The notes beneath the pieces are model-generated. The model did not search any database. It saw nothing but the letters and a program-made list of their open reading frames with translations, and was not told where the DNA came from. Source: a virus. Taken from it: a stretch of DNA of 24,481 nucleotides. The stretch is taken from positions 1-24,481 of the IMG/VR virus record IMGVR_UViG_3300031857_001319. One strand, written 5' to 3'. Below, piece after piece: positions 1 to 7,124 of the stretch; position 1 is the stretch's first letter; every line of letters begins with the position of its first letter. The translations under genes and the position numbers were made by a program.

Positions 1-246
1 GTTATCCTTAATAATTCTTTTGTATTGCTTCCATAGTGTTTCAAAAGGAATAATTACATCCCATTTGCAAGCAGTTGTACCATAAGGCAAATCACACAAA
101 ATCATATCCACCGACTTATCAGCAATCTTATCCATTTCCACAAGGCAATCACCCTGATAGAATGTACTGCGGCTAACACTGCATTGCTGCAATGGCGGCT
201 GATGTGCTTCATTCAACTGTGGTATTTCAAATAAACTTTTCTGCAT
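1..246 (-). CDS. DNA methyltransferase (N6-adenine/N4-cytosine type), N-terminal part, runs off the left edge
   Basis: Only the first 82 residues are present. Residues 31-60 read like the start of a site-specific DNA methylase: QGDCLVEM followed by VDMILCDLPYGTTACKWD, where DLPY (residues 52-55) is the catalytic motif IV of the DPPY class and the following GTTACKWD is common in phage-type adenine methylases. It would transfer a methyl group from S-adenosylmethionine to DNA, plausibly to protect phage DNA or mark it for regulation. The extra N-terminal residues 1-26, upstream of the usual family start, overlap the 3' half of the attC-like site at 171-302, so the chosen ATG (244-246) is uncertain. 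No in-frame ATG lies between that site and the GDCL motif. The target sequence cannot be inferred. Confidence 0.8.
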   Translation of the reverse strand, partial: MQKSLFEIPQLNEAHQPPLQQCSVSRSTFYQGDCLVEMDKIADKSVDMILCDLPYGTTACKWDVIIPFETLWKQYKRIIKDN

Positions 247-302
247 AATTCAACTTTTGTTTTTCAATTTCCGCCACTGACAGCAATGCTTTTACGTTAG
301 TA
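171..302 (-). other. attC-like site A
   Basis: On the plus strand GGCTAAC (171-177) is followed by the arm GCATTGCTGCAATGGCGG (181-198). The matching arm CCGCCACTGACAGCAATGC is at 271-289 and GTTAG at 296-300. The arms pair except for one unpaired base and one wobble. The outer spacers are 3 and 6 nt. The loop of about 70 nt contains the annotated start of the methyltransferase. The site begins about 20 nt after the stop of the 320-571 gene on the minus strand. The extrahelical base and unequal spacers are hallmarks of attC sites. Confidence 0.65.
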
Positions 303-319
303 CCAATAGCCTTTGATGT

Positions 320-571
320 TTACGCTTTGGGTGTTGATATAAATGGTAAATTATCTTTTTCTCTTGATGAGGCTACTATCTTATGTATATTACTTTGAAA
401 TTCTTTATCAAAACAAATGTTTGTATTTCCTAATCTGTAAACAGGATGAAATTTAGTTTCTGTTTGGTCAAATATTAAATCACCAGTTTCAGCACCTGTT
501 TTATTAAGCACTTCAAAAACTTCAATTACTCCTGCGTTTTCTAATTCTATTTTTCTTGTTAATTTTTCCAT
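320..571 (-). CDS. Hypothetical 83-aa cassette protein
   Basis: An 83-residue soluble protein with no signal peptide, membrane segment or motif that I recognise. It is mixed alpha/beta in composition, with a charged N-terminus (MEKLTRKIELENAG) and a single Cys in NICFDKEF. It sits alone between attC-like sites B (upstream) and A (downstream), so it looks like a one-gene cassette. The ATG at 569-571 follows an A/T-rich leader with no clear ribosome binding site, which is usual in Bacteroidota. The function is unknown. Confidence 0.6.
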   Translation of the reverse strand: MEKLTRKIELENAGVIEVFEVLNKTGAETGDLIFDQTETKFHPVYRLGNTNICFDKEFQSNIHKIVASSREKDNLPFISTPKA

Positions 572-610
572 TGTATGTATTTGTTTTTAAGTTTTAATTT
601 GGCTACTGGT

Positions 611-697
611 ACTAACCGCACCTAATAAACATTTGATTAGGCTGCTCACTCACTACTATTGGTTTACAAACGATTTATTAGCTGCAAAACGTTAGTG
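611..697 (-). other. attC-like site B
   Basis: On the plus strand ACTAAC (611-616) is followed after 1 nt by GCACCTAATAAA (618-629). The partner arm TTTATTAGCTGC is at 674-685, followed after 5 nt (AAAAC) by GTTAGTG (691-697). Eleven of twelve arm positions pair. The minus-strand stop codon of the 55-aa zinc-ribbon gene (692-694) lies inside the terminal box, so the gene ends exactly at the site. Confidence 0.65.
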
Positions 698-859
698 GCA
701 ATCAACAGGAAATCCCCACCAACATATTTTTGAACAATACCCATTCCATTCATCGCTATCGTGTTCTTTACCGCAATTAGGACAGAATTGACTGCCACTA
801 ACATCACCCTTATTCAATGCGGGGTTTTCGGCTTCGTTGGACACATTTTCACTATTCAT
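692..859 (-). CDS. Small zinc-ribbon cassette protein (55 aa)
   Basis: A 55-residue ORF starting at ATG 857-859. Residues 26-29 are CPNC and residues 42-46 are CSKIC, giving two Cys pairs that could hold one zinc; D53, C54 and H55 close the protein. The pattern FCPNCGKEH... resembles short zinc-ribbon domains that bind nucleic acid or protein. It is one cassette between attC-like sites C and B, and its TAA is formed by the CACTAAC box of site B. No target can be named. It is shorter than the usual ORF cutoffs, but the Cys spacing and exact fit between sites support it being real. Confidence 0.6.
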   Translation of the reverse strand: MNSENVSNEAENPALNKGDVSGSQFCPNCGKEHDSDEWNGYCSKICWWGFPVDCH

Positions 860-873
860 AATATTCGGTTTTA

Positions 874-926
874 AATTAACATAGTGCTTTTAAGCCCGCA
901 CTAAATAAGGCTGCGGCACGTTACCA
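874..926 (-). other. attC-like site C (short, weakest)
   Basis: On the plus strand AATTAAC (874-880) precedes GTGC (884-887) and GCCCGCA (894-900). The partners TGCGGC (912-917) and GCAC (916-919) come just before GTTACCA (920-926). The stem is short and one C is unpaired. The 3' spacer expected of attC is missing, so this is the least convincing member, kept because it falls exactly between two same-strand ORFs, 2 nt after the stop of the upstream one. Confidence 0.4.
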
Positions 927-927
927 C

Positions 928-1185
928 TCATTTTGCATCCGACACGCTATCGCGTACTGTTCTACAATCACAAATGAATACATCTTGCCAATAACCTCCC
1001 ATTGGTGTCATACTACCATCTGCTGCATAAATATATGTTTGTTGCCATTGTTCTTCATAGTGTCCATAAACACACGGATAAGCATATTCATACCAAATCC
1101 ACCATCCAATTAGTGATAATAATACAATGGTAATAATGTAAATCCATTTGTAATCTGATAAATGTTCTTTAATGTTTTCAATCAT
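928..1185 (-). CDS. Small single-pass membrane cassette protein (85 aa)
   Basis: Start chosen at ATG 1183-1185; an upstream TTG at 1236 would place the start inside attC-like site D and is less likely. Residues about 14-31 (WIYIITIVLLSLIGWWIW) form one hydrophobic membrane segment preceded by a charged cytoplasmic stretch. The rest (about 54 residues) is aromatic-rich and polar, with Cys in YPCVYGHYEEQW and FICDCRTV, and is probably outside. Single-gene membrane proteins of this kind are common in environmental gene cassettes. No family is recognised and the role is unknown. Confidence 0.6.
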   Translation of the reverse strand: MIENIKEHLSDYKWIYIITIVLLSLIGWWIWYEYAYPCVYGHYEEQWQQTYIYAADGSMTPMGGYWQDVFICDCRTVRDSVSDAK

Positions 1186-1224
1186 CTTTTTAATTTTTAT
1201 TTTGCCCACGCTTGCAAAACGAAG

Positions 1225-1312
1225 TGGTAACAACAAATTGGCGCAAGCCGAGCGTTAATGCCAATATGCTGTGTTTTATTTACGGCCTGTCGCCAATTCG
1301 CTGCCGTTATAG
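1225..1312 (-). other. attC-like site D
   Basis: On the plus strand TGGTAAC (1225-1231) precedes AAATTGGCG (1235-1243) and AGCC (1246-1249). The partners GGCC (1284-1287) and CGCCAATT (1291-1298) are followed, after a GC-rich spacer, by GTTATAG (1306-1312). Eight base pairs of the main stem are perfect. The site separates the 85-aa and 43-aa ORFs and is clearly richer in G+C than its surroundings. Confidence 0.55.
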
Positions 1313-1328
1313 GTAAGTTGCGTATCAT

Positions 1329-1460
1329 TTAGAAACATTTTAACATAACAAACTTTTTTTCTATTCGTTCATAGAAAAGTAATCCTTCTTTCAATCTTTT
1401 TACTTTCCACTTCTTTTTATTGTTTTCAATTCTAATAATTTTCATAATCTTATTTTTCAT
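1329..1460 (-). CDS. Tiny basic hypothetical protein (43 aa)
   Basis: A 43-codon ORF from ATG 1458-1460 to TAA 1329-1331, flanked by attC-like sites E and D. The product is very basic (lysine-rich, with IENNKKKWKVKRLKEG in the middle) and has a hydrophobic end (FVMLKCF). A second ATG at 1443-1445 would give 38 residues. It is the only ORF that fills this cassette. Function unknown; a basic nucleic-acid-binding peptide is possible but unsupported. Confidence 0.4.
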   Translation of the reverse strand: MKNKIMKIIRIENNKKKWKVKRLKEGLLFYERIEKKFVMLKCF

Positions 1461-1494
1461 ATTTTGTACTAATTAAACATTCGTTACAACCTAC

Positions 1495-1551
1495 CTATAA
1501 CAGCGTATAAAATCCATTGAAAAAACGGCTCTTATACGCAAAACGTTAGCG
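1495..1551 (-). other. attC-like site E
   Basis: On the plus strand CTATAAC (1495-1501), 1-nt spacer, GCGTATAA (1503-1510), loop of 21 nt, perfect partner TTATACGC (1532-1539), 5-nt spacer AAAAC, GTTAGCG (1545-1551). This is the cleanest compact example in the array. Its AAAAC spacer before GTTAG is shared with site B. The 3' flank ACCTATAAC/GTTATAGGT is also found at the edge of site D, so the 43-aa cassette has matching ends. Confidence 0.7.
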
Positions 1552-1574
1552 GTAATTGCACCCCACCGCACTAG

Positions 1575-1841
1575 TTAATCGTCTAAATTCTGCTCATTAA
1601 TAAATTTCTTTTGTATTCCAAAATACCACCATAAAAAACGAATTGTAAAACTCCAATGATTAAAGTTTGGAGTGTCGATACTTTTGTTTAACCAAAACCT
1701 CGGATATAATTTTAAGTTGCTCCAATTGGCAGTAAAATTTTGGTGAATCCATTTGTATTTATAGTTATTAATAAAATCAACTACAATTCGTTTTATAGTT
1801 TTCTTTTTTGTCACTTCTTTTTTATAAGTTAATGTTATCAT
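1575..1841 (-). CDS. Hypothetical 88-aa cassette protein
   Basis: An 88-residue, basic and aromatic-rich protein (many W, F, Y and N) starting at ATG 1839-1841. The first 20 residues are lysine-rich, and the middle contains NFTANWSNLKLYPRFW and SFTIRFLWWYFGIQKKF. A short hydrophobic patch around FLWWYFGI might touch a membrane but is too short for a clear transmembrane segment. It lies 18 nt after the zinc-ribbon gene 1860-2120 with no attC-like site between them, so the two would share a cassette. No family recognised. Confidence 0.5.
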   Translation of the reverse strand: MITLTYKKEVTKKKTIKRIVVDFINNYKYKWIHQNFTANWSNLKLYPRFWLNKSIDTPNFNHWSFTIRFLWWYFGIQKKFINEQNLDD

Positions 1842-1859
1842 AATTTTATGTTTTTACAG

Positions 1860-2120
1860 TCACCCTACCGTTTTCTTACATTTAGTGCAAGTCCAAACAC
1901 CTGATGGTGAAATATATGATATACATTTCCAATCGTGTTCACACTCCGATTTTATAACATCGGTTTGTTGCAATTGCAAGGCTTGGTAATTGTTAGTAAA
2001 ATTCTGTGATAAGGCAAAAGTTAAATAGTTTTTTTGTTCTTGTGAAAGTTCTTGACCTTGTAATGTTAGGCGTTTATTTGCCCACTCTATTGCGTTATGT
2101 ATTCTTTCTGTAATATCCAT
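1860..2120 (-). CDS. Zinc-ribbon cassette protein (86 aa)
   Basis: The N-terminal 55 residues are helical (MDITERIHNAIEWANKRL...). The C-terminus holds CEHDWKC (residues 60-66) and CTKC (78-81), a four-ligand zinc-ribbon pattern with the common HDW...SGVW.C..C arrangement. Such domains often bind DNA, RNA or a protein partner. It is the first gene after attC-like site F and precedes the 88-aa gene. A start at ATG 2118-2120 is supported by the protein making sense from its first residue. No precise function can be assigned. Confidence 0.6.
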   Translation of the reverse strand: MDITERIHNAIEWANKRLTLQGQELSQEQKNYLTFALSQNFTNNYQALQLQQTDVIKSECEHDWKCISYISPSGVWTCTKCKKTVG

Positions 2121-2194
2121 AATTTTTGTTTTATTAAGTAATTAATTATCTGCAACTGCAACAAGCTGGAGAACGTTAAAACATTAAAACAATT

Positions 2195-2328
2195 TTATAA
2201 CAAAGTATAAAAGAAATAAACGTGGTGTTTTTTCTGTGGTTTATTACACCTCCACATGGTTGATTAATGGCTCAACTTCTATAGGCTTCTTTGTTCACGT
2301 TTACTTCATTTATACTCAATCGTTATAA
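2195..2328 (-). other. attC-like site F, right-hand end of the cassette array
   Basis: On the plus strand TTATAAC (2195-2201), 3-nt spacer, a 20-nt arm (2205-2224) beginning GTATAAAAGAAATAA, and a partner arm (2296-2315) ending CTTCATTTATAC; 18 of 20 positions pair. A 6-nt spacer and GTTATAA (2322-2328) follow. The loop contains a further hairpin GGTGT/ACACC (2224-2228 / 2246-2250). At 134 nt it is as long as the Vibrio-type repeats. It lies 43 nt after the stop of the 2372-2785 gene and marks the last site seen before the phage-like small genes. Confidence 0.7.
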
Positions 2329-2371
2329 GTAATTAATTGCTCATTTAACTCCAATCTCAAAATTACCAATA

Positions 2372-2803: not shown

Positions 2804-2825
2804 GAGTCAGAAATTAATCTGACTC
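2804..2825 (-). terminator. Perfect 8-bp hairpin between two exported-protein genes
   Basis: GAGTCAGA (2804-2811) and TCTGACTC (2818-2825) pair perfectly across a 6-nt loop. On the minus strand the hairpin begins 5 nt after the stop of 2831-3307 and is followed by an A/T-rich tail without a strict T run, 18 nt before the ATG of 2372-2785. It may be a weak terminator or an mRNA 3'-end stabiliser that separates expression of the two genes. Confidence 0.5.
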
Positions 2826-2830
2826 GTTAA

Positions 2831-3307
2831 TTAGTTTTTATATTTTTTAAATGTGTTTAATTCATAATCAAATTTAATTCCACCTGCTAAAATCCTATCA
2901 TTTACACCTGAAGTTAATGCAACAGATGTTACAATATACCAATTATTGTAGGTAGCTTCAGTATTAACAATTATTACTTTAGTGTTAGTATTTTTATAAT
3001 TTATTGATATTTCATATTCAGTAGAGTAATCTAAAAATAATACAAATTTGTTAGATACATGCATTGATGTTAATACACCATTGTTGTAGTTTACAATATT
3101 TAATACATATGATGTATCATCAATTGATTGATCATCTACAAATACAGATAAATCTAATTTGATTTTAGTTTTTTCTAATTGTTTTAATTGAGATCTAGTT
3201 TTAGATATGTTAGTATCAAAACCTGATTGTTGTGCAAATGCACATGCAGACATTACAATAAGCATTAAGCTTATAAATAGCAATTTGATTTTCACTGATT
3301 CTTTCAT
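2831..3307 (-). CDS. Exported hypothetical protein (158 aa)
   Basis: The N-terminus MKESVKIKLLFISLMLIVMSACAFAQQSG is a signal peptide. AFA|QQ (residues about 23-25) is a good signal peptidase I site, while C22 in MSAC leaves a lipoprotein alternative open. The mature part has a helical, lysine-rich start and then beta-rich sequence with SVFVDDQSIDDTSYVLNIV and TEYEISINYKNTNTKVIIV, resembling a small beta-sandwich of the kind found in surface proteins. No enzyme motif is seen. It is preceded by a long structured leader with a terminator. Function unknown. Confidence 0.65.
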   Translation of the reverse strand: MKESVKIKLLFISLMLIVMSACAFAQQSGFDTNISKTRSQLKQLEKTKIKLDLSVFVDDQSIDDTSYVLNIVNYNNGVLTSMHVSNKFVLFLDYSTEYEISINYKNTNTKVIIVNTEATYNNWYIVTSVALTSGVNDRILAGGIKFDYELNTFKKYKN

Positions 3308-3350
3308 GATTTCTAGGTTTTAGTTGATTTATATTTTGATTGAATTATTT

Positions 3351-3375
3351 AAAAAGAACAAGCCTCTCACTTGTT
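3351..3375 (-). terminator. Intrinsic terminator upstream of the 158-aa exported-protein gene
   Basis: On the minus strand AACAAG, 7-nt loop TGAGAGG, CTTGTT, then CTTTTT (plus-strand positions 3375 down to 3351). It is 44 nt upstream of the ATG of 2831-3307 and downstream of a structured leader, the layout of a transcription attenuator. It could also simply end the transcript coming from 3634-3810. Confidence 0.55.
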
Positions 3376-3377
3376 TG

Positions 3378-3452
3378 GTGGTTTCATATTTGTGTATATA
3401 ATGAGAAAACGACTAATAATTATATACAACTACCAAGTTAATGGACAACCAC
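3378..3452 (-). ncRNA. Structured leader element, nested stems
   Basis: Two nested inverted repeats: GTGGTT (3378-3383) with AACCAC (3447-3452), and GTATATAAT (3394-3402) with ATTATATAC (3419-3427). Together with the terminator just downstream (3351-3375) they form a folded, untranslated leader before the exported-protein gene. No known riboswitch class is recognised. Confidence 0.35.
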
Positions 3453-3502
3453 TAAGTTTTGTTAGAATATTTATTAGGGATATTATATTTTAATTTGTTT
3501 TA

Positions 3503-3604
3503 AATAAACTCTTACAAGGTTGTACCTTGGCTATACCTCCTACTTAAGATAGGTGTTCTAAATTCAGTTGAACTATTTATTCTACAATTGGATAAGAGTT
3601 TATT
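3503..3604 (-). ncRNA. Multibranched RNA element closed by a 12-bp stem
   Basis: AATAAACTCTTA (3503-3514) pairs perfectly with TAAGAGTTTATT (3593-3604). The 78 nt between them hold smaller hairpins: CAAGGT/ACCTTG (3515-3529), a CCTA/TAGG pairing (3538-3554) and GTTC/GAAC (3554-3574). The result is a closed multi-arm shape of about 100 nt. On the minus strand it starts 29 nt after the stop of the 58-aa ORF. I do not recognise it as a tRNA or a known riboswitch. Confidence 0.4.
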
Positions 3605-3633
3605 ATTAATCAGTATCACAAAAGTTACTCTGA

Positions 3634-3810
3634 TTAATTTTTTGTACAATGATTATGACCTCTTTCAATTATTAAATAAAAATACTTATTTTTAAGTCTC
3701 TTTCTTCTTTTGTAAAGTATTTTATTATCATATTGCCAAGGATTCATTTTAAGTAAATATTGACATTCATTAAATGACATTACTTCTTTAAGCTTTATTA
3801 TATTTTTCAT
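3634..3810 (-). CDS. Small basic hypothetical protein (58 aa)
   Basis: A 58-residue ORF from ATG 3808-3810 to TAA 3634-3636. It reads as a real protein: MKNIIKLKEVMSFNECQ, then KMNPWQYDNK, a strongly basic run YKRRKRLKNK, then a beta-like YFYLIIERGHNH and a final CTKN. C16, H52, H54 and C55 could bind a metal, but the spacing is not a standard zinc finger. It is flanked by long structured spacers on both sides. Function unknown. Confidence 0.5.
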   Translation of the reverse strand: MKNIIKLKEVMSFNECQYLLKMNPWQYDNKILYKRRKRLKNKYFYLIIERGHNHCTKN

Positions 3811-3838
3811 AATTTATTGTTTTAATGTTTTAAATAAA

Positions 3839-4106
3839 ATATAACTTATTTACTTTAAAGTTAGTAAGACTTTGTTTCAACAAGTTATATAATATTATCT
3901 TTTAGTTTTGGACTAACTGGTGGAAAGATATTAAACCACCTCACGTATAGTATGTTGTATAAGAACTACCAAATACACCACCTAACTATCATCTTTAGTA
4001 ACTAATGTTACAATATTTTAAAGTAAGGTTTGACCAACTAACCTACAAGGAGTATTTTTACAGAATACTTAAACTGTATTGAGGAAACTATCACATAAAC
4101 TCAATA
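3839..4106 (-). ncRNA. Chain of hairpins in a 355-nt gene-free spacer
   Basis: Between the 58-aa gene and the 142-aa gene no convincing ORF is seen. Instead there are hairpins in series: ATATAACTT/AAGTTATAT (3839-3847 / 3882-3890), TTAGT/ACTAA (3902-3916), GGTGG/CCACC (3919-3923 / 3936-3940), GTAAC/GTTAC (3998-4011), AGTATT/AATACT (4051-4069) and TATTGAG/CTCAATA (4077-4083 / 4100-4106). In sequence this A/T-rich, short stems are expected by chance; the number of clean ones is the only reason to list it. It may be an untranslated RNA or a long 5' leader. Confidence 0.3.
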
Positions 4107-4109
4107 TAA

Positions 4110-4155
4110 GAACTAGTGGAGGGAATCGAACCCTCCTTTATTCCAAAACTAGTTC
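4110..4155 (-). ncRNA. tRNA-like minihelix (acceptor stem plus T-arm)
   Basis: On the minus strand GAACTAGT, 11-nt bulge TTTGGAATAAA, GGAGGG, loop TTCGATT, CCCTCC, ACTAGTTC. The outer 8 bp and inner 6 bp are perfect, and their 3' strands are continuous, so the helices would stack. The seven-base loop TTCGATT fits the tRNA T-loop pattern. The D-arm and anticodon arm are missing, leaving the shape of a tRNA acceptor/T-arm minihelix. It begins 10 nt after the stop of the 142-aa gene. No CCA follows. It could be a processing signal for tRNA-maturation enzymes or a relic of a tRNA 3' end. Confidence 0.5.
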
Positions 4156-4165
4156 ACACTAACTA

Positions 4166-4594
4166 CTAAGAGTTAAGTGGTTGTTGAGAACTTACTGCAA
4201 CTGGAGCTACAGAAGTATGTTTGATTAACAAATCTACTTCAGCTATTTCTGAAGTAAATACTGTTTCACGATAAATAGGCATACCATTGTATAATAATAC
4301 ACCACCATCCTTACCTTGAGTTTTAGGCTTTTGTCCTTTATAGAAAGGAGCAGTAGCTTCACGATGGATTAATTTTCCTTCAATAGGAAATTCTGAACCT
4401 GCTGCCAAGTTCATAGCATTTAAAGTTGCTAATTCAGCTCTAAAGAAAGCTGTACGAGTTTGTTTATTAATGATTCCACCATTAATTACAAAACTGTCTT
4501 CTGCTACCATTACTGAACCCCAGTTAGGAGTTTTTTCAGATACATTGATTACTAAGCCTGTGTTTGGGTTTGATTTTACGATTAATTTTGACAT
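4166..4594 (-). CDS. Conserved-looking phage protein (142 aa), possible ssDNA-binding type
   Basis: A 142-residue soluble protein with a beta-rich body. Notable stretches are SNPNTGLVINVSE, NWGSVMVAEDSFVINGG, NKQTRTAFFRAE, then basic and aromatic HREATAPFYKGQKPK, then VLLYNGMPIYRETVF, and a flexible Ser/Pro/Val-rich tail. Beta strands with conserved-looking aromatics and a low-complexity tail suit an OB-fold single-stranded-DNA-binding protein, but the acidic tail tip typical of bacterial SSB is absent and I cannot confirm the family. Its better codon quality suggests good expression. The tRNA-like element lies 10 nt after its stop. Confidence 0.6.
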   Translation of the reverse strand: MSKLIVKSNPNTGLVINVSEKTPNWGSVMVAEDSFVINGGIINKQTRTAFFRAELATLNAMNLAAGSEFPIEGKLIHREATAPFYKGQKPKTQGKDGGVLLYNGMPIYRETVFTSEIAEVDLLIKHTSVAPVAVSSQQPLNS

Positions 4595-4610
4595 GATTTC
4601 TTGTTTTTAA

Positions 4611-4686
4611 TTGTTAATTGATTTATTGATTTATTAATTGTTTGACAAAGTTTAAGTCTATGTCAAGACTATCCAACAATTAACAA
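4611..4686 (-). ncRNA. Leader stem closing 76 nt upstream of the 142-aa gene
   Basis: TTGTTAATTG (4611-4620) pairs perfectly with CAATTAACAA (4677-4686). Inside, TTGACA (4642-4647) pairs with TGTCAA (4661-4666). On the minus strand it sits in the 5' leader of 4166-4594, 16 nt before the ATG, so it could influence translation. No known class recognised. Confidence 0.35.
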
Positions 4687-4690
4687 GATG

Positions 4691-4746
4691 ATATAACTAA
4701 TGTATAGACCAAGTCTGAATGCTATAAATAGCTAATTAGATTATAT
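4691..4746 (-). ncRNA. Compact three-way-junction RNA element
   Basis: Outer stem ATATAA + CTAAT (4691-4701) with ATTAG (4735-4739) + TTATAT (4741-4746), 11 bp with one bulged A. It encloses AGAC/GTCT (4706-4716) and GCTAT/ATAGC (4721-4732). The motif looks like a folded three-way junction, but hammerhead-type core bases (CTGATGA, GAAA) are absent. On the minus strand it starts 27 nt after the stop of the 32-aa ORF and continues directly into the next stem. Confidence 0.4.
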
Positions 4747-4773
4747 GAGAGCTTGTTGATTGTTTAATGTTGT

Positions 4774-4872
4774 TTAAGAGTATAATACTGAAGCATATAG
4801 GTATGTGTATTCAGATAAACATATTTGATGAAATCTGTAATAATGTATTTCTTCTTTAGTTAGTTTAGGCAT
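4774..4872 (-). CDS. Small ORF (32 aa), translationally coupled to the upstream membrane gene
   Basis: ATG 4870-4872 overlaps the 3' end of the 81-aa membrane-protein gene (stop 4865-4867) by 8 nt, in the overlapping style seen elsewhere in the window. The peptide MPKLTKEEIHYYRFHQICL continues to SEYTYLYASVLYS and is amphipathic and tyrosine-rich, more protein-like than random. Without it the spacer 4595-4864 would hold no gene. Function unknown. Confidence 0.4.
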   Translation of the reverse strand: MPKLTKEEIHYYRFHQICLSEYTYLYASVLYS

Positions 4873-5110
4873 GACGTTTAGATTTAATTGATTCAACATA
4901 AATAGTTAGAATTAGTAATGAATAGACTACAAATACAAATGATATTGTAAGTCCTAATATTTGATTAATATAATATGACGTAACAATACATATTAATCCA
5001 TATCCAATGTGTGCAGATAATGGTCTTTCAATACAAAAGTCTGCTATCATATTACCTAAATAGAATAATATGGATATGAATCCAATGATGTGTAATAAGT
5101 TTGATTCCAT
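4865..5110 (-). CDS. Small integral membrane protein (81 aa)
   Basis: Residues about 5-25, 33-49 and 51-71 form three hydrophobic segments (LLHIIGFISILFYLGNMIADF; IGYGLICIVTSYYINQ; ILGLTISFVFVVYSLLILTI). The C-terminal tail VESIKSKRHA is basic, putting it in the cytoplasm by the positive-inside rule. It carries no holin-specific motif. Phages use small membrane proteins for lysis, superinfection exclusion or receptor changes; nothing here chooses between them. It starts at ATG 5108-5110, 31 nt after the 34-aa ORF. Confidence 0.6.
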   Translation of the reverse strand: MESNLLHIIGFISILFYLGNMIADFCIERPLSAHIGYGLICIVTSYYINQILGLTISFVFVVYSLLILTIYVESIKSKRHA

Positions 5111-5141
5111 TGTAATAGTTTTTAATTAGTTAATAATTTAT

Positions 5142-5246
5142 TTAATTTGTTAAAGCATTTAATTTAGGGTAAATTTTTCTGTAATTATATTCATGTGTAT
5201 TTTCTTTAACATGTAACATTTTACAGAATAATAGAAATGTTTTCAT
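5142..5246 (-). CDS. Small basic ORF (34 aa)
   Basis: ATG 5244-5246 to TAA 5142-5144. The peptide starts MKTFLLFCKMLHVKENTHE and ends YNYRKIYPKLNALTN; it is basic and has a hydrophobic first third. It sits 31 nt before the membrane-protein gene in the same direction, so it could be a short upstream gene or a leader peptide. Support is limited to length, composition and position. Confidence 0.3.
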   Translation of the reverse strand: MKTFLLFCKMLHVKENTHEYNYRKIYPKLNALTN

Positions 5247-5277
5247 AATTATTTAGTTTTAAATGATTAATTTGGTA

Positions 5278-5353
5278 TAAACAGTTAGGCGGAAACATAT
5301 AGTATAAACTAAATCTGCATGTATTTCTACATCTGCCACTCTTTAACTGTTTA
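5278..5353 (-). ncRNA. Structured element closed by a 10-bp stem
   Basis: TAAACAGTTA (5278-5287) pairs perfectly with TAACTGTTTA (5344-5353). Just inside, GGCGGA (5288-5293) pairs with TCTGCC (5332-5337) with one wobble, and ATGTA/TACAT makes a hairpin (5319-5332). It contains GTTAGGC and TTTAAC but in the order GTTA...TAAC, opposite to attC, so it is not one of those sites. No riboswitch family recognised. Confidence 0.4.
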
Positions 5354-5362
5354 ATATTGATA

Positions 5363-5453
5363 ATCTATTACATACCCACAAACATTAATATAATACTTGA
5401 TACTTGCACAAGTCCTTGTTATATAATGGTTTACAGTGGAATATGTAATAGAT
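5363..5453 (-). ncRNA. Structured element closed by a 12-bp stem, 6 nt after a stop codon
   Basis: ATCTATTACATA (about 5363-5374) pairs perfectly with TATGTAATAGAT (5442-5453). Inside are CCAC/GTGG near the base, CATTA-TATAA with TTATATAATG, and ACTTG/CAAGT. On the minus strand it begins 6 nt after the stop of the 63-aa gene. It forms a tandem with the element at 5278-5353, and together they fill most of the 213-nt gene-free stretch 5247-5459. Confidence 0.4.
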
Positions 5454-5459
5454 ATTTAG

Positions 5460-5651
5460 TTAGGTTAATAGTGAGACACCAACACATATTGATGCCCAAA
5501 TTTGGTCATGACTAGGTTTGTTGTTTACATAACCTAATTCACGTTTAACAGTATTTAATCTGTTATGTACACTGAATGCATATTCAGGTAATTTAGTTTG
5601 TCTGTTGATAATTGGTCTACCATTTTTAGTAGTACGTTGTAAAGTGTTCAT
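5460..5651 (-). CDS. Hypothetical protein (63 aa)
   Basis: A 63-residue basic protein: MNTLQRTTKNGRPIINRQTK, then LPEYAFSVHNRLNTVKREL, then GYVNNKPSHDQIWASICVG. Polar and probably helical in the middle, with a slightly hydrophobic end. No motif recognised. It is flanked by structured elements on both sides. Start at ATG 5649-5651. Confidence 0.5.
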   Translation of the reverse strand: MNTLQRTTKNGRPIINRQTKLPEYAFSVHNRLNTVKRELGYVNNKPSHDQIWASICVGVSLLT

Positions 5652-5779
5652 AGTTGGATAGTTTTTAGAGGTTAATAATTGGTTTATAAGTTGTTAATTA
5701 AGCTATGTGTATATAAGAGGATATAATTATAGGATAAGTTAGGATTAGGGTTAAAAGGTGAGGGAGAGGAGTGTACTCC

Positions 5780-5848
5780 ATCTACTATTCCATAATTCCC
5801 AATGTTTTCAAGCCTTTCAGAGCATTAATTCCTACTAAACTAGTAGAT
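5780..5848 (-). ncRNA. Inverted repeat in the 311-nt spacer 5652-5962
   Basis: ATCTACTA (5780-5787) pairs with TAGTAGAT (5841-5848), and GAGT/ACTC just outside can extend it past bulges. Inside, AATG/CATT (5801-5804 / 5823-5826) may pair. Next to it, GGAGTGTACTCC (5768-5779) is a perfect palindrome that could be a protein-binding site. The remainder of the spacer (5652-5767) is purine-rich with no ORF or repeat that I can support. Confidence 0.3.
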
Positions 5849-5861
5849 TACTCTAAATTAA

Positions 5862-5952
5862 ATATAAACTCTCCTCAGTGGTCTATTCCACAAGCTTAAC
5901 TAAGATGTAAACATCTCAATTAACTCCAAAGCAGTTGGAGAGAGTTATATAT
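5862..5952 (-). ncRNA. Cloverleaf-like RNA element, 10 nt after a stop codon
   Basis: ATATA + AACTCT (5862-5872) pairs with AGAGTT + TATAT (5941-5952) around one bulged A. Three hairpins are enclosed in order: GTGG/CCAC (5878-5891), AGATGT/ACATCT (5903-5916) and CTCCAA/TTGGAG (5924-5940). A closing stem with three arms is the outline of a tRNA, but no T-loop (TTCRA), D-loop GG or suitable anticodon arm is present on either strand, so it is not called a tRNA. Confidence 0.45.
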
Positions 5953-5962
5953 TTAAGTGTTG

Positions 5963-6085
5963 TTAAAGATTAATACAAGCTAATAGTATAACAAAATCCA
6001 TTGCTAAGCAAATGAATATTGATTTAACTAACTGATTATCAGATAATTTGTTAGATAAGTTTGGAATTATTGTTAGAGTTAACAT
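5963..6085 (-). CDS. Small membrane protein (40 aa from ATG; 65 aa from an upstream TTG)
   Basis: The ATG at 6083-6085 gives a 40-residue protein: MLTLTIIPNLSNKLSDNQL followed by the membrane segment KSIFICLAMDFVILLACINL. A longer reading from TTG 6158-6160 would begin inside the hairpin that ends the preceding gene, so the shorter form is preferred; the longer form adds about 25 polar residues and a first short hydrophobic stretch. A one-pass C-tail-anchored peptide is likely. Function unknown. Confidence 0.45.
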   Translation of the reverse strand: MLTLTIIPNLSNKLSDNQLVKSIFICLAMDFVILLACINL

Positions 6086-6137
6086 AATATATAAGGTTAA
6101 TTGGTTAATTGGATTTGAATTAGAATTAAATAAAGAG

Positions 6138-6154
6138 GAGAGCACTAGGCTCTC
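6138..6154 (-). terminator. Hairpin with T-rich tail 8 nt after the 78-aa gene
   Basis: On the minus strand GAGAGC, loop CTAGT, GCTCTC, then CTCTTTATTT. Six perfect, mostly G/C pairs and a T-rich tail fit an intrinsic terminator for the 6163-6399 gene. It follows the stop-then-structure spacing seen at several other minus-strand genes. Confidence 0.55.
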
Positions 6155-6162
6155 ACTCAATA

Positions 6163-6399
6163 CTATAATGACATAGTCTCCTCTTCTACATAAGAGTTGA
6201 CAGTAGCAATAGCTTGTCCCTCTTCAGTAATCAATACATTAAATGTTGATAATGTACCATCATAAGACCTTTTACCAACTGGTAATGTAGCTTTAGCACC
6301 ACTAGCTAATTCATAGCTAATAAATTTACCATTTGGACCAGCAATAATAGATGCTTTAACTGCACCTAATTCTTTTAAATACTCTAATAAAGTTTTCAT
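6163..6399 (-). CDS. Hypothetical protein (78 aa), first gene of the minus-strand region
   Basis: A 78-residue protein: helical MKTLLEYLKELGAVKASI, then AGPNGKFISYELASGAKATL, then PVGKRSYDGTLSTFNVLIT and EEGQAIATVNSYVEEETMSL. The alternating pattern after residue 20 suggests a small beta-sheet domain, and the N-terminal helix may dimerise. It is transcribed away from the endonuclease gene across the divergent spacer, so it is likely an early, strongly expressed gene, with codons similar to the 142-aa gene. Family not recognised. Confidence 0.6.
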   Translation of the reverse strand: MKTLLEYLKELGAVKASIIAGPNGKFISYELASGAKATLPVGKRSYDGTLSTFNVLITEEGQAIATVNSYVEEETMSL

Positions 6400-6569: not shown

Positions 6570-7124
6570 ATGAAAATATGTAAAAAATGTAAAGTAGAAA
6601 AAGAACTTACTGATTTTAATCAGTGTTCAGTAAACAAAGACGGGTATTTAGGGTTTTGTAAAGAATGTAGATATGGTCATAAACCACATAAACCTATTGT
6701 AGAGGGTTTAAAAATATGCACCACATGTACAGAATCTAAAGATATATCTTGTTTTTCAATTATCAATAAAAATACAGGAAGTACTCAATCTAGTTGTAAA
6801 GTATGCAGAAATAAATACAAAGCAATAAAAAGAAAAGCTAACCCTATTAAAGAGTCTCTAAGAAAGAGAAAACAAAAATTAAAATCTAACTATGATATGA
6901 CGATAGAAGATTATGATAAATTGTATAGTACTCAACAAGGTAACTGCTTGATTTGTAATACTTACCATAGAAAATTATCAATAGATCACTGTCATGATAC
7001 AGGATTAGTAAGGGGTTTATTATGCTCTAATTGTAATTCAGGATTGGGTATGTTTAAGGATAATTCAATTTTATTATTAAAAGCCGTAGAATACCTTAAA
7101 CTATCTAACACTGATAAATCTTAA
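6570..7124 (+). CDS. HNH / recombination endonuclease VII-type nuclease
   Basis: A 184-residue protein with two N-terminal Cys-rich knuckles (CKKC...CKEC, residues 4-33; CTTC...CKVC, residues 50-79), a basic linker (KAIKRKANPIKESLRKRKQK), and an endonuclease VII-like core: CLIC (126-129), SIDHCHDTGLVRGLLCSNC (137-155) and NSGLGMF. D139-H140 with H142 form the His-Me finger active site, and C126, C129, C152 and C155 bind the structural zinc. T4 endonuclease VII cuts branched DNA before packaging; related free-standing HNH enzymes also act as homing endonucleases. It is alone between two regulatory spacers, which fits a mobile or early gene. All catalytic residues are present. Confidence 0.85.
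   Translation: MKICKKCKVEKELTDFNQCSVNKDGYLGFCKECRYGHKPHKPIVEGLKICTTCTESKDISCFSIINKNTGSTQSSCKVCRNKYKAIKRKANPIKESLRKRKQKLKSNYDMTIEDYDKLYSTQQGNCLICNTYHRKLSIDHCHDTGLVRGLLCSNCNSGLGMFKDNSILLLKAVEYLKLSNTDKS

Follow-up and report, generated by a model that had tools for sequence, protein, structure and literature searches.

RNase P and RNase Z cut transcripts at tRNAs or at tRNA-like structures, as at the tRNAs of bacterial operons and at the mascRNA of MALAT1, which is known as tRNA punctuation. The gene 32 mRNAs of the phages T4 and RB69 carry a pseudoknot, then an unstructured segment of more than 40 nucleotides (nt) with UAAA/UUAAA units (PMC535899), and the phage RNAs GOLLD and ROOL often lie near tRNAs (PMC12286853). 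Here we compare these systems with a minus-strand block of small genes (2.4-6.4 kb) in the virus DNA IMGVR_UViG_3300031857_001319 (24,481 nt; the whole stretch analysed is called the window). This 24.5-kb fragment belongs to a crAss-like phage, as shown by matches to terminase, portal and the Crassvirus major capsid family. Many intervals in this block measure 80-350 nt, the rest of the phage being tightly packed. Judging from sequence comparison, RNA structures do exist in the block and several of them covary; relatives retain them in place or have others in their stead. We give an even chance to the reading that several different conserved RNA elements serve as punctuation in the block, namely terminators, a tRNA-type processing signal, a module of 3'-untranslated regions (3'-UTRs) and the leader of a gene for a putative single-stranded-DNA-binding protein (SSB).

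Relatives were collected with TerL, the 142-amino-acid (aa) OB-fold gene and a 63-aa gene of the phage as queries; about 12 distinct ones share the block, and two other contigs are 100% identical in sequence to the window. Rfam covariance models, run on the window and its relatives, recognised tRNA as the sole family at gathering thresholds and nothing plausible below them, GOLLD and ROOL included.

Folding behind the stop codons

The original prediction held that five minus-strand stop codons (at 6163, 5963, 5460, 4166 and 2831) are followed, at a fixed short distance, by strong RNA structures with a common role at mRNA 3' ends. The structures in question are as follows.

6138-6154, minus strand: Y, a terminator-like G/C hairpin (GAGAGC-CUAGU-GCUCUC, then CUCUUUAUUU) after stop 6163, seen by a consensus terminator scan; z = −3.0.
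5860-5956, minus strand: A, a cloverleaf-like element after stop 5963, with three inner arms and a long A/U-rich closing stem; minimum free energy (MFE) −35.5 kcal/mol, z = −3.7.
5363-5453, minus strand: B, the motif UUCCACUGUAAAnCAUU...AAUGUUUGUGGGU within a closing stem of 12-13 base pairs (bp), after stop 5460; z = −2.8.
4110-4154, minus strand: T, a tRNA-derived minihelix (sequence and fold), 11 nt after stop 4166.
2804-2825, minus strand: Z, a perfect 8-bp hairpin, 5 nt past stop 2831; z = −5.1.

We folded the 100 nt downstream of every stop on the minus strand and compared them with 200 dinucleotide shuffles. All five sequences folded better than their shuffles (stop 2831, z = −5.1, 0/200 shuffles as stable; stop 4166, z = −2.3, 5/200; stop 5460, z = −2.8, 1/200; stop 5963, z = −3.7, 1/200; stop 6163, z = −3.0, 3/200), and the shapes described were present in the MFE folds, so that the strong structures themselves, with z from −2.3 to −5.1, were borne out. 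The relatives, examined for a lack of structures at these places, did the opposite, about 12 crAss-like phages retaining structures at the window's post-stop sites, with covariation. The stop at 4774, which had not been cited, is also followed by a stable fold (z = −3.7, 0/200 shuffles as stable). The pattern is not a general one, other stops of the block lacking excess folding (2372, z = +1.3; 1860, z = −0.3; 3634, z = +0.6; 4865, z = −0.2). In a wider survey of the same-strand gaps of 60 nt or more in the window and in the long contigs of four relatives, the mean z was −1.55 after stops (34% below −2) versus −1.12 before starts (19%); post-stop structure is enriched, not universal.

The fixed spacing lost its meaning in the comparison with shuffled RNAs. 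The first paired base of shuffled post-stop sequences falls at a median of 5 nt, and within 5-10 nt in 26% of them; in the structured real sequences it falls at 5-10 nt in 34%, with a range of 0-27 nt, and the first base of the minihelix comes 11 nt past its stop. We rejected constant spacing as evidence, since shuffled RNAs give the same values. The open reading frame (ORF) ending at 5963 has only 40 aa when counted from its ATG and is a doubtful gene. As for the proposed common role, an action at 3' ends fits several of the elements, because of the hairpins at the 2831 slot, the tRNA type of the 4166 slot and the presence of B after the stops of different genes; what did not stand is the spacing argument and the idea of one class, the five structures being, by comparison of the gaps among relatives, of different kinds. 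The leader D of the OB-fold gene and the separate conserved RNAs F and H, described below, do not belong to the 3' end of a gene before them.

A reduced tRNA behind the OB-fold gene

T (45 nt) is made of a 7-bp acceptor stem (AACUAGU/ACUAGUU), a T-arm (GAGGG-UUCGAUU-CCCUC) and a discriminator C. Its T-stem bears a 7-nt loop of the UUCRANU form, which together with a 7-bp acceptor stem is what we take to mark a tRNA. It is devoid of both the D-arm and the anticodon arm, and 11 nt alone separate the acceptor from the T-arm. ARAGORN and the Rfam tRNA model made no tRNA call for T in the window, and the tmRNA model matched its T-arm. At 10-12 nt behind the stop of the 4166 homologue, eight relatives carry a tRNA-like cloverleaf, scored by Rfam at 43-63 bits in seven of them and at 33 bits in L060. 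ARAGORN called several of the relatives' tRNA-like RNAs with the anticodon ATT or an undefined two-letter anticodon, and missed others. The anticodon loop reads CGAUUAA, without U33, in L061, L063 and L066, and has six bases in L062, L064 and L067; in most of these relatives it appears unfit to decode. The acceptor and T-arm alone are kept in four contigs (the window, L059, L069 and L070), with compensated changes in the acceptor. The distance from stop to acceptor at this slot is 6-12 nt in 11 of 12 cases, and the distant G015 has a U8 terminator 5 nt past the stop of its 4166 homologue, with a tRNA after it. By sequence and fold, T is a reduced tRNA, homologous to the tRNA at the same locus. 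We considered whether T and F together form a circularly permuted tRNA or tmRNA and dropped the idea, both acceptor strands lying in T.

Similarly to known tRNA punctuation, the window has an acceptor stem and T-arm right behind a coding region and ahead of another RNA, and T retains the 7-bp acceptor, the T-loop and the discriminator base. The locus differs from it in that the four contigs have lost the D-arm and anticodon arm, that a conserved pseudoknotted RNA follows, and that cutting is what we infer here.

Conserved RNAs behind the minihelix

4012-4107, minus strand: F, a previously unreported conserved RNA directly behind T, with hairpin P1, pseudoknot P2/P3 and hairpin P4.
3830-3990, minus strand: G, an element of the variable region, common to L011 only (95% identical).
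3351-3453, minus strand: H, a conserved RNA with two covarying helices and the terminal hairpin CAAGUGAGAGGCUUG, then UUCUUUUU.

F (about 96 nt) begins within a few nt of the tRNA-like 3' end in 10 of 12 genomes. Its P1 hairpin covaries, as ascertained by comparing own with cross duplex energies (p = 8.7e-9), the MAFFT alignment of the P1 arm being out of register. The pseudoknot is supported by P3 (p = 2.4e-7) and by the pair counts of P2-P4, which reach 97.6% versus 92.5% in shuffled sets (0/500), slid versions giving 32-48%. With a covariance model of F, R1, 13 records gave one strong match each (the phage of the window being counted twice), and nothing convincing turned up elsewhere; a weak match in G014 (E = 0.02) was set aside as having no F features, and a scan of one bacterial genome found none. 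H was found in twelve genomes, and both of its helices covary (P1, p = 8.1e-6; P2, p = 6.6e-5). A hammerhead ribozyme in H (GUC...GAAAC) was dropped, as there is no CUGANGA.

NUMOD4/HNH homing-endonuclease genes lie between the RNA elements in L059 (4888-5388) and L062 (4567-5076), the insertion in L062 standing exactly between the tRNA-like RNA and F. In L061 (about 3536-3600), L011 and L060, we noticed a conserved hairpin, AUUAAUCA(A/G)AGU..., then UAACCUCGCCAAGAUUAGGUUAGACUUGGC; this element resembles another H-type pseudoknot (UAACCU with AGGUUA), and its first hairpin is also present at window 3612-3640.

The leader of the OB-fold gene

4642-4764, minus strand: D, a long stem with inner hairpins, then an H-type pseudoknot (4642-4670), between stop 4774 and the 4166 gene.
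4595-4641, minus strand: an unstructured A/U-rich leader, from the pseudoknot to the start codon of the 4166 gene.
4166-4594, minus strand: a 142-aa protein with a predicted OB fold (AlphaFold2, pLDDT 82).

D is conserved in every relative having the 4166 gene. Its pseudoknot covaries in twelve genomes (stem, p = 3.8e-7; 95% paired versus 86.8% shuffled, 0/500), and in eleven genomes the leader that follows measures 44-54 nt, with 82-90% A+T, at most 2 G and a mean unpaired probability of 0.76-0.96. As modelled, the 142-aa protein is probably a single-stranded-DNA-binding protein, and a Pfam SSB search in five relatives returned no other SSB candidate. An annotated phage collection contained no match to D, to the OB-fold protein or to the F/H region.

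Similarly to the T4/RB69 gene 32 operator, D presents a pseudoknot, then an open A/U-rich leader of more than 40 nt, with UAAA/UUAAA units, up to the start codon of the gene for a predicted OB-fold protein. The two share no sequence relation, D has an extra long stem upstream and the host initiation signals differ, so that the resemblance lies in layout alone. Because the pseudoknot and A/U-rich tail repeat the layout of the T4 gene 32 operator, we propose that D, unlike the post-stop elements, is the leader of the SSB-like gene and probably a translational operator, to which the SSB-like protein would bind to repress its own translation.

Terminator-like hairpins and proposed transferable modules

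Y is kept with 92% identity at the same location in L060. In place of Z, most relatives have an unrelated hairpin 4-5 nt past the stop of the 2831 homologue: L059 and L011 carry GGAGGCUAGA...UCUAGCUUCC then U6, and L062, L063, L064, L066 and L067 carry a UAAACUCUUAC/GUAAGAGUUUA hairpin 4 nt past the stop. L060 has no hairpin at this slot, the next ATG lying 4 nt past the stop. Since the position is kept, the sequence is not, and some relatives have U-tracts, the 2831 slot appears to be a terminator or 3'-end slot. The likeness to intrinsic (Rho-independent) terminators consists of a hairpin soon after the stop and of the U-tract in Y and in the relatives' 2831 slot, whereas A, B, C and the minihelix of the window have no U-tract and more complex folds.

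Two further elements of the block were delineated from folds.

5278-5353, minus strand: C, a second stem-closed element behind B (MFE fold).
3503-3604, minus strand: E, with the closing stem AAUAAACUCUUA/UAAGAGUUUAUU (folds and motif search).

B is present in seven further contigs, its closing stem covaries (own versus cross duplex, p = 4.6e-3) and its core comprises 20 or more conserved bases, without a U-tract. In the window, G001, G016, G010 and G004 (1 nt by a stricter count), it lies 4-7 nt past a stop, the genes concerned being of at least three kinds. The closing-stem sequence of E follows the p2831 stop in other phages. K, which is not in the window, is a hairpin whose apex of 16 nt, UAACGGUGGUCGCCUG, is invariant; it was found in L059 (2310-2340), L060 (2738-2765), L011 and others; it stands 6-9 nt past the stops of four different proteins, on stems that read AUCUC/GAGAU, AUCUUC/GAAGAU and UUAUUC/GAAUAA. 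We ignored the matches to the K motif in L136, L137, L139, L142 and L144 (one shared sequence, without a stem) and in L135, L141 and L145 (without a stem). The B, K, E-type and H elements move independently of genes.

Surroundings of the block

On the plus strand, a gene of the recombination endonuclease VII family (6570-7124, E = 3e-23) is divergent from the small-gene block. On the minus strand, window 1-2371 resembles an integron-type gene-cassette array, with small ORFs between attC-like palindromes (TAACG...GTTA arms; 2325-2196, 1548-1496, 694-611 and 299-172). Both contigs identical to the window terminate within this cassette-like array, at window positions 2036 and 2238. Either the crAss-like phage carries cassettes, or the assembly is chimeric here.

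Discussion

We propose that mRNA 3' ends are formed or protected by the elements just past the stops, with Y and Z acting as terminator-type hairpins and B as a transferable 3'-UTR module. T would be a tRNA-type cutting signal after the OB-fold gene, because the acceptor/T-arm stack read by RNase P and RNase Z is kept and the decoding parts are lost. A cut at T would give a defined 3' end to the mRNA of the OB-fold gene, and a defined 5' end to F.

Several observations weigh against this proposal. On the minus strand, the consensus terminator scan found Y alone terminator-like; Z has a weak U-tract and passes the scan on the plus strand only. Searches of the relatives with blastn found no homologue of A or C, and B lies away from a stop in G011 and L148. 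The minihelix alleles share sequence, and the reduction may therefore be a single event and not the result of repeated selection. Concerning the leader, A/U-rich leaders also precede other genes of the phage, the trait not being specific to the 4166 gene; one of the five AlphaFold2 models of the OB fold was confident, and the structural neighbours in the PDB and a viral library, mostly SSB and PriB, have weak scores (best E 0.14, Z about 5).

A plainer account, in our view a rather unlikely one, is that ordinary intrinsic terminators and a decaying tRNA gene explain all the post-stop structures, with no special system. It is consistent with the U-tracts in Y and in the relatives' counterparts of Z, with the terminators that also follow late genes, and with the fact that phage tRNA genes are common and decay. 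However, conserved covarying pseudoknots, a B core of this size without a U-tract and compensated minihelix stems are unexpected for plain terminators or for decay. It is very improbable that the palindromes are DNA elements, such as recombination or mobile-element sites, and not RNA signals. The finding of B, E-type elements and K behind different genes in different genomes, the HNH genes among the palindromic elements and the attC-like palindromes at the left end of the window would all accord with this, but RNA fits better, knowing that the orientation to the gene is constant wherever the motifs are placed, that conserved loops are asymmetric, and that there are pseudoknots and adjacency to stops.

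We also regard it as unlikely that T, F, the variable middle part and H are domains of one large RNA in the style of GOLLD and ROOL, with a tRNA-like start, a terminator end and genes or homing endonucleases in its loops. The order T-F-H is kept in ten genomes, most of which have F directly behind T, H ends with a hairpin and a U-run, the variable part contains HNH/NUMOD4 genes, and a long stem connects the flanks of F and H in L062, L063 and L067. Like GOLLD and ROOL, the RNAs of the window are phage-encoded, pseudoknotted and beside or containing tRNAs, with a variable part; unlike them, they match neither by sequence nor by model, and T, F and H as one molecule is a conjecture. In addition, L069 and L070 have T and F with H not nearby, G014 and G015 have H and not F, pairing between the flanks of F and H is no general feature (p = 0.6), and a large RNA of this kind has no Rfam match.

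Returning to the reading of a block punctuated by several different elements, at least five conserved covarying RNA families occur in a few kb of one phage lineage (B, D, F and H in the window, K in the relatives), none of them recognised by Rfam. The series from tRNA to minihelix is a natural experiment that shows what is retained of a tRNA once decoding is no longer needed. More broadly, and with considerable doubt, we suggest that this lineage uses exchangeable RNA modules as punctuation, including a tRNA reduced to its processing stem and coupled to the new conserved pseudoknotted RNA F, which may form a new large ornate RNA together with H, as well as an independently evolved autogenous operator of the gp32 style. 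If true, the pseudoknot leader on the SSB-like gene would be an instance, independent of T4, of self-control in the gp32 manner within Crassvirales.

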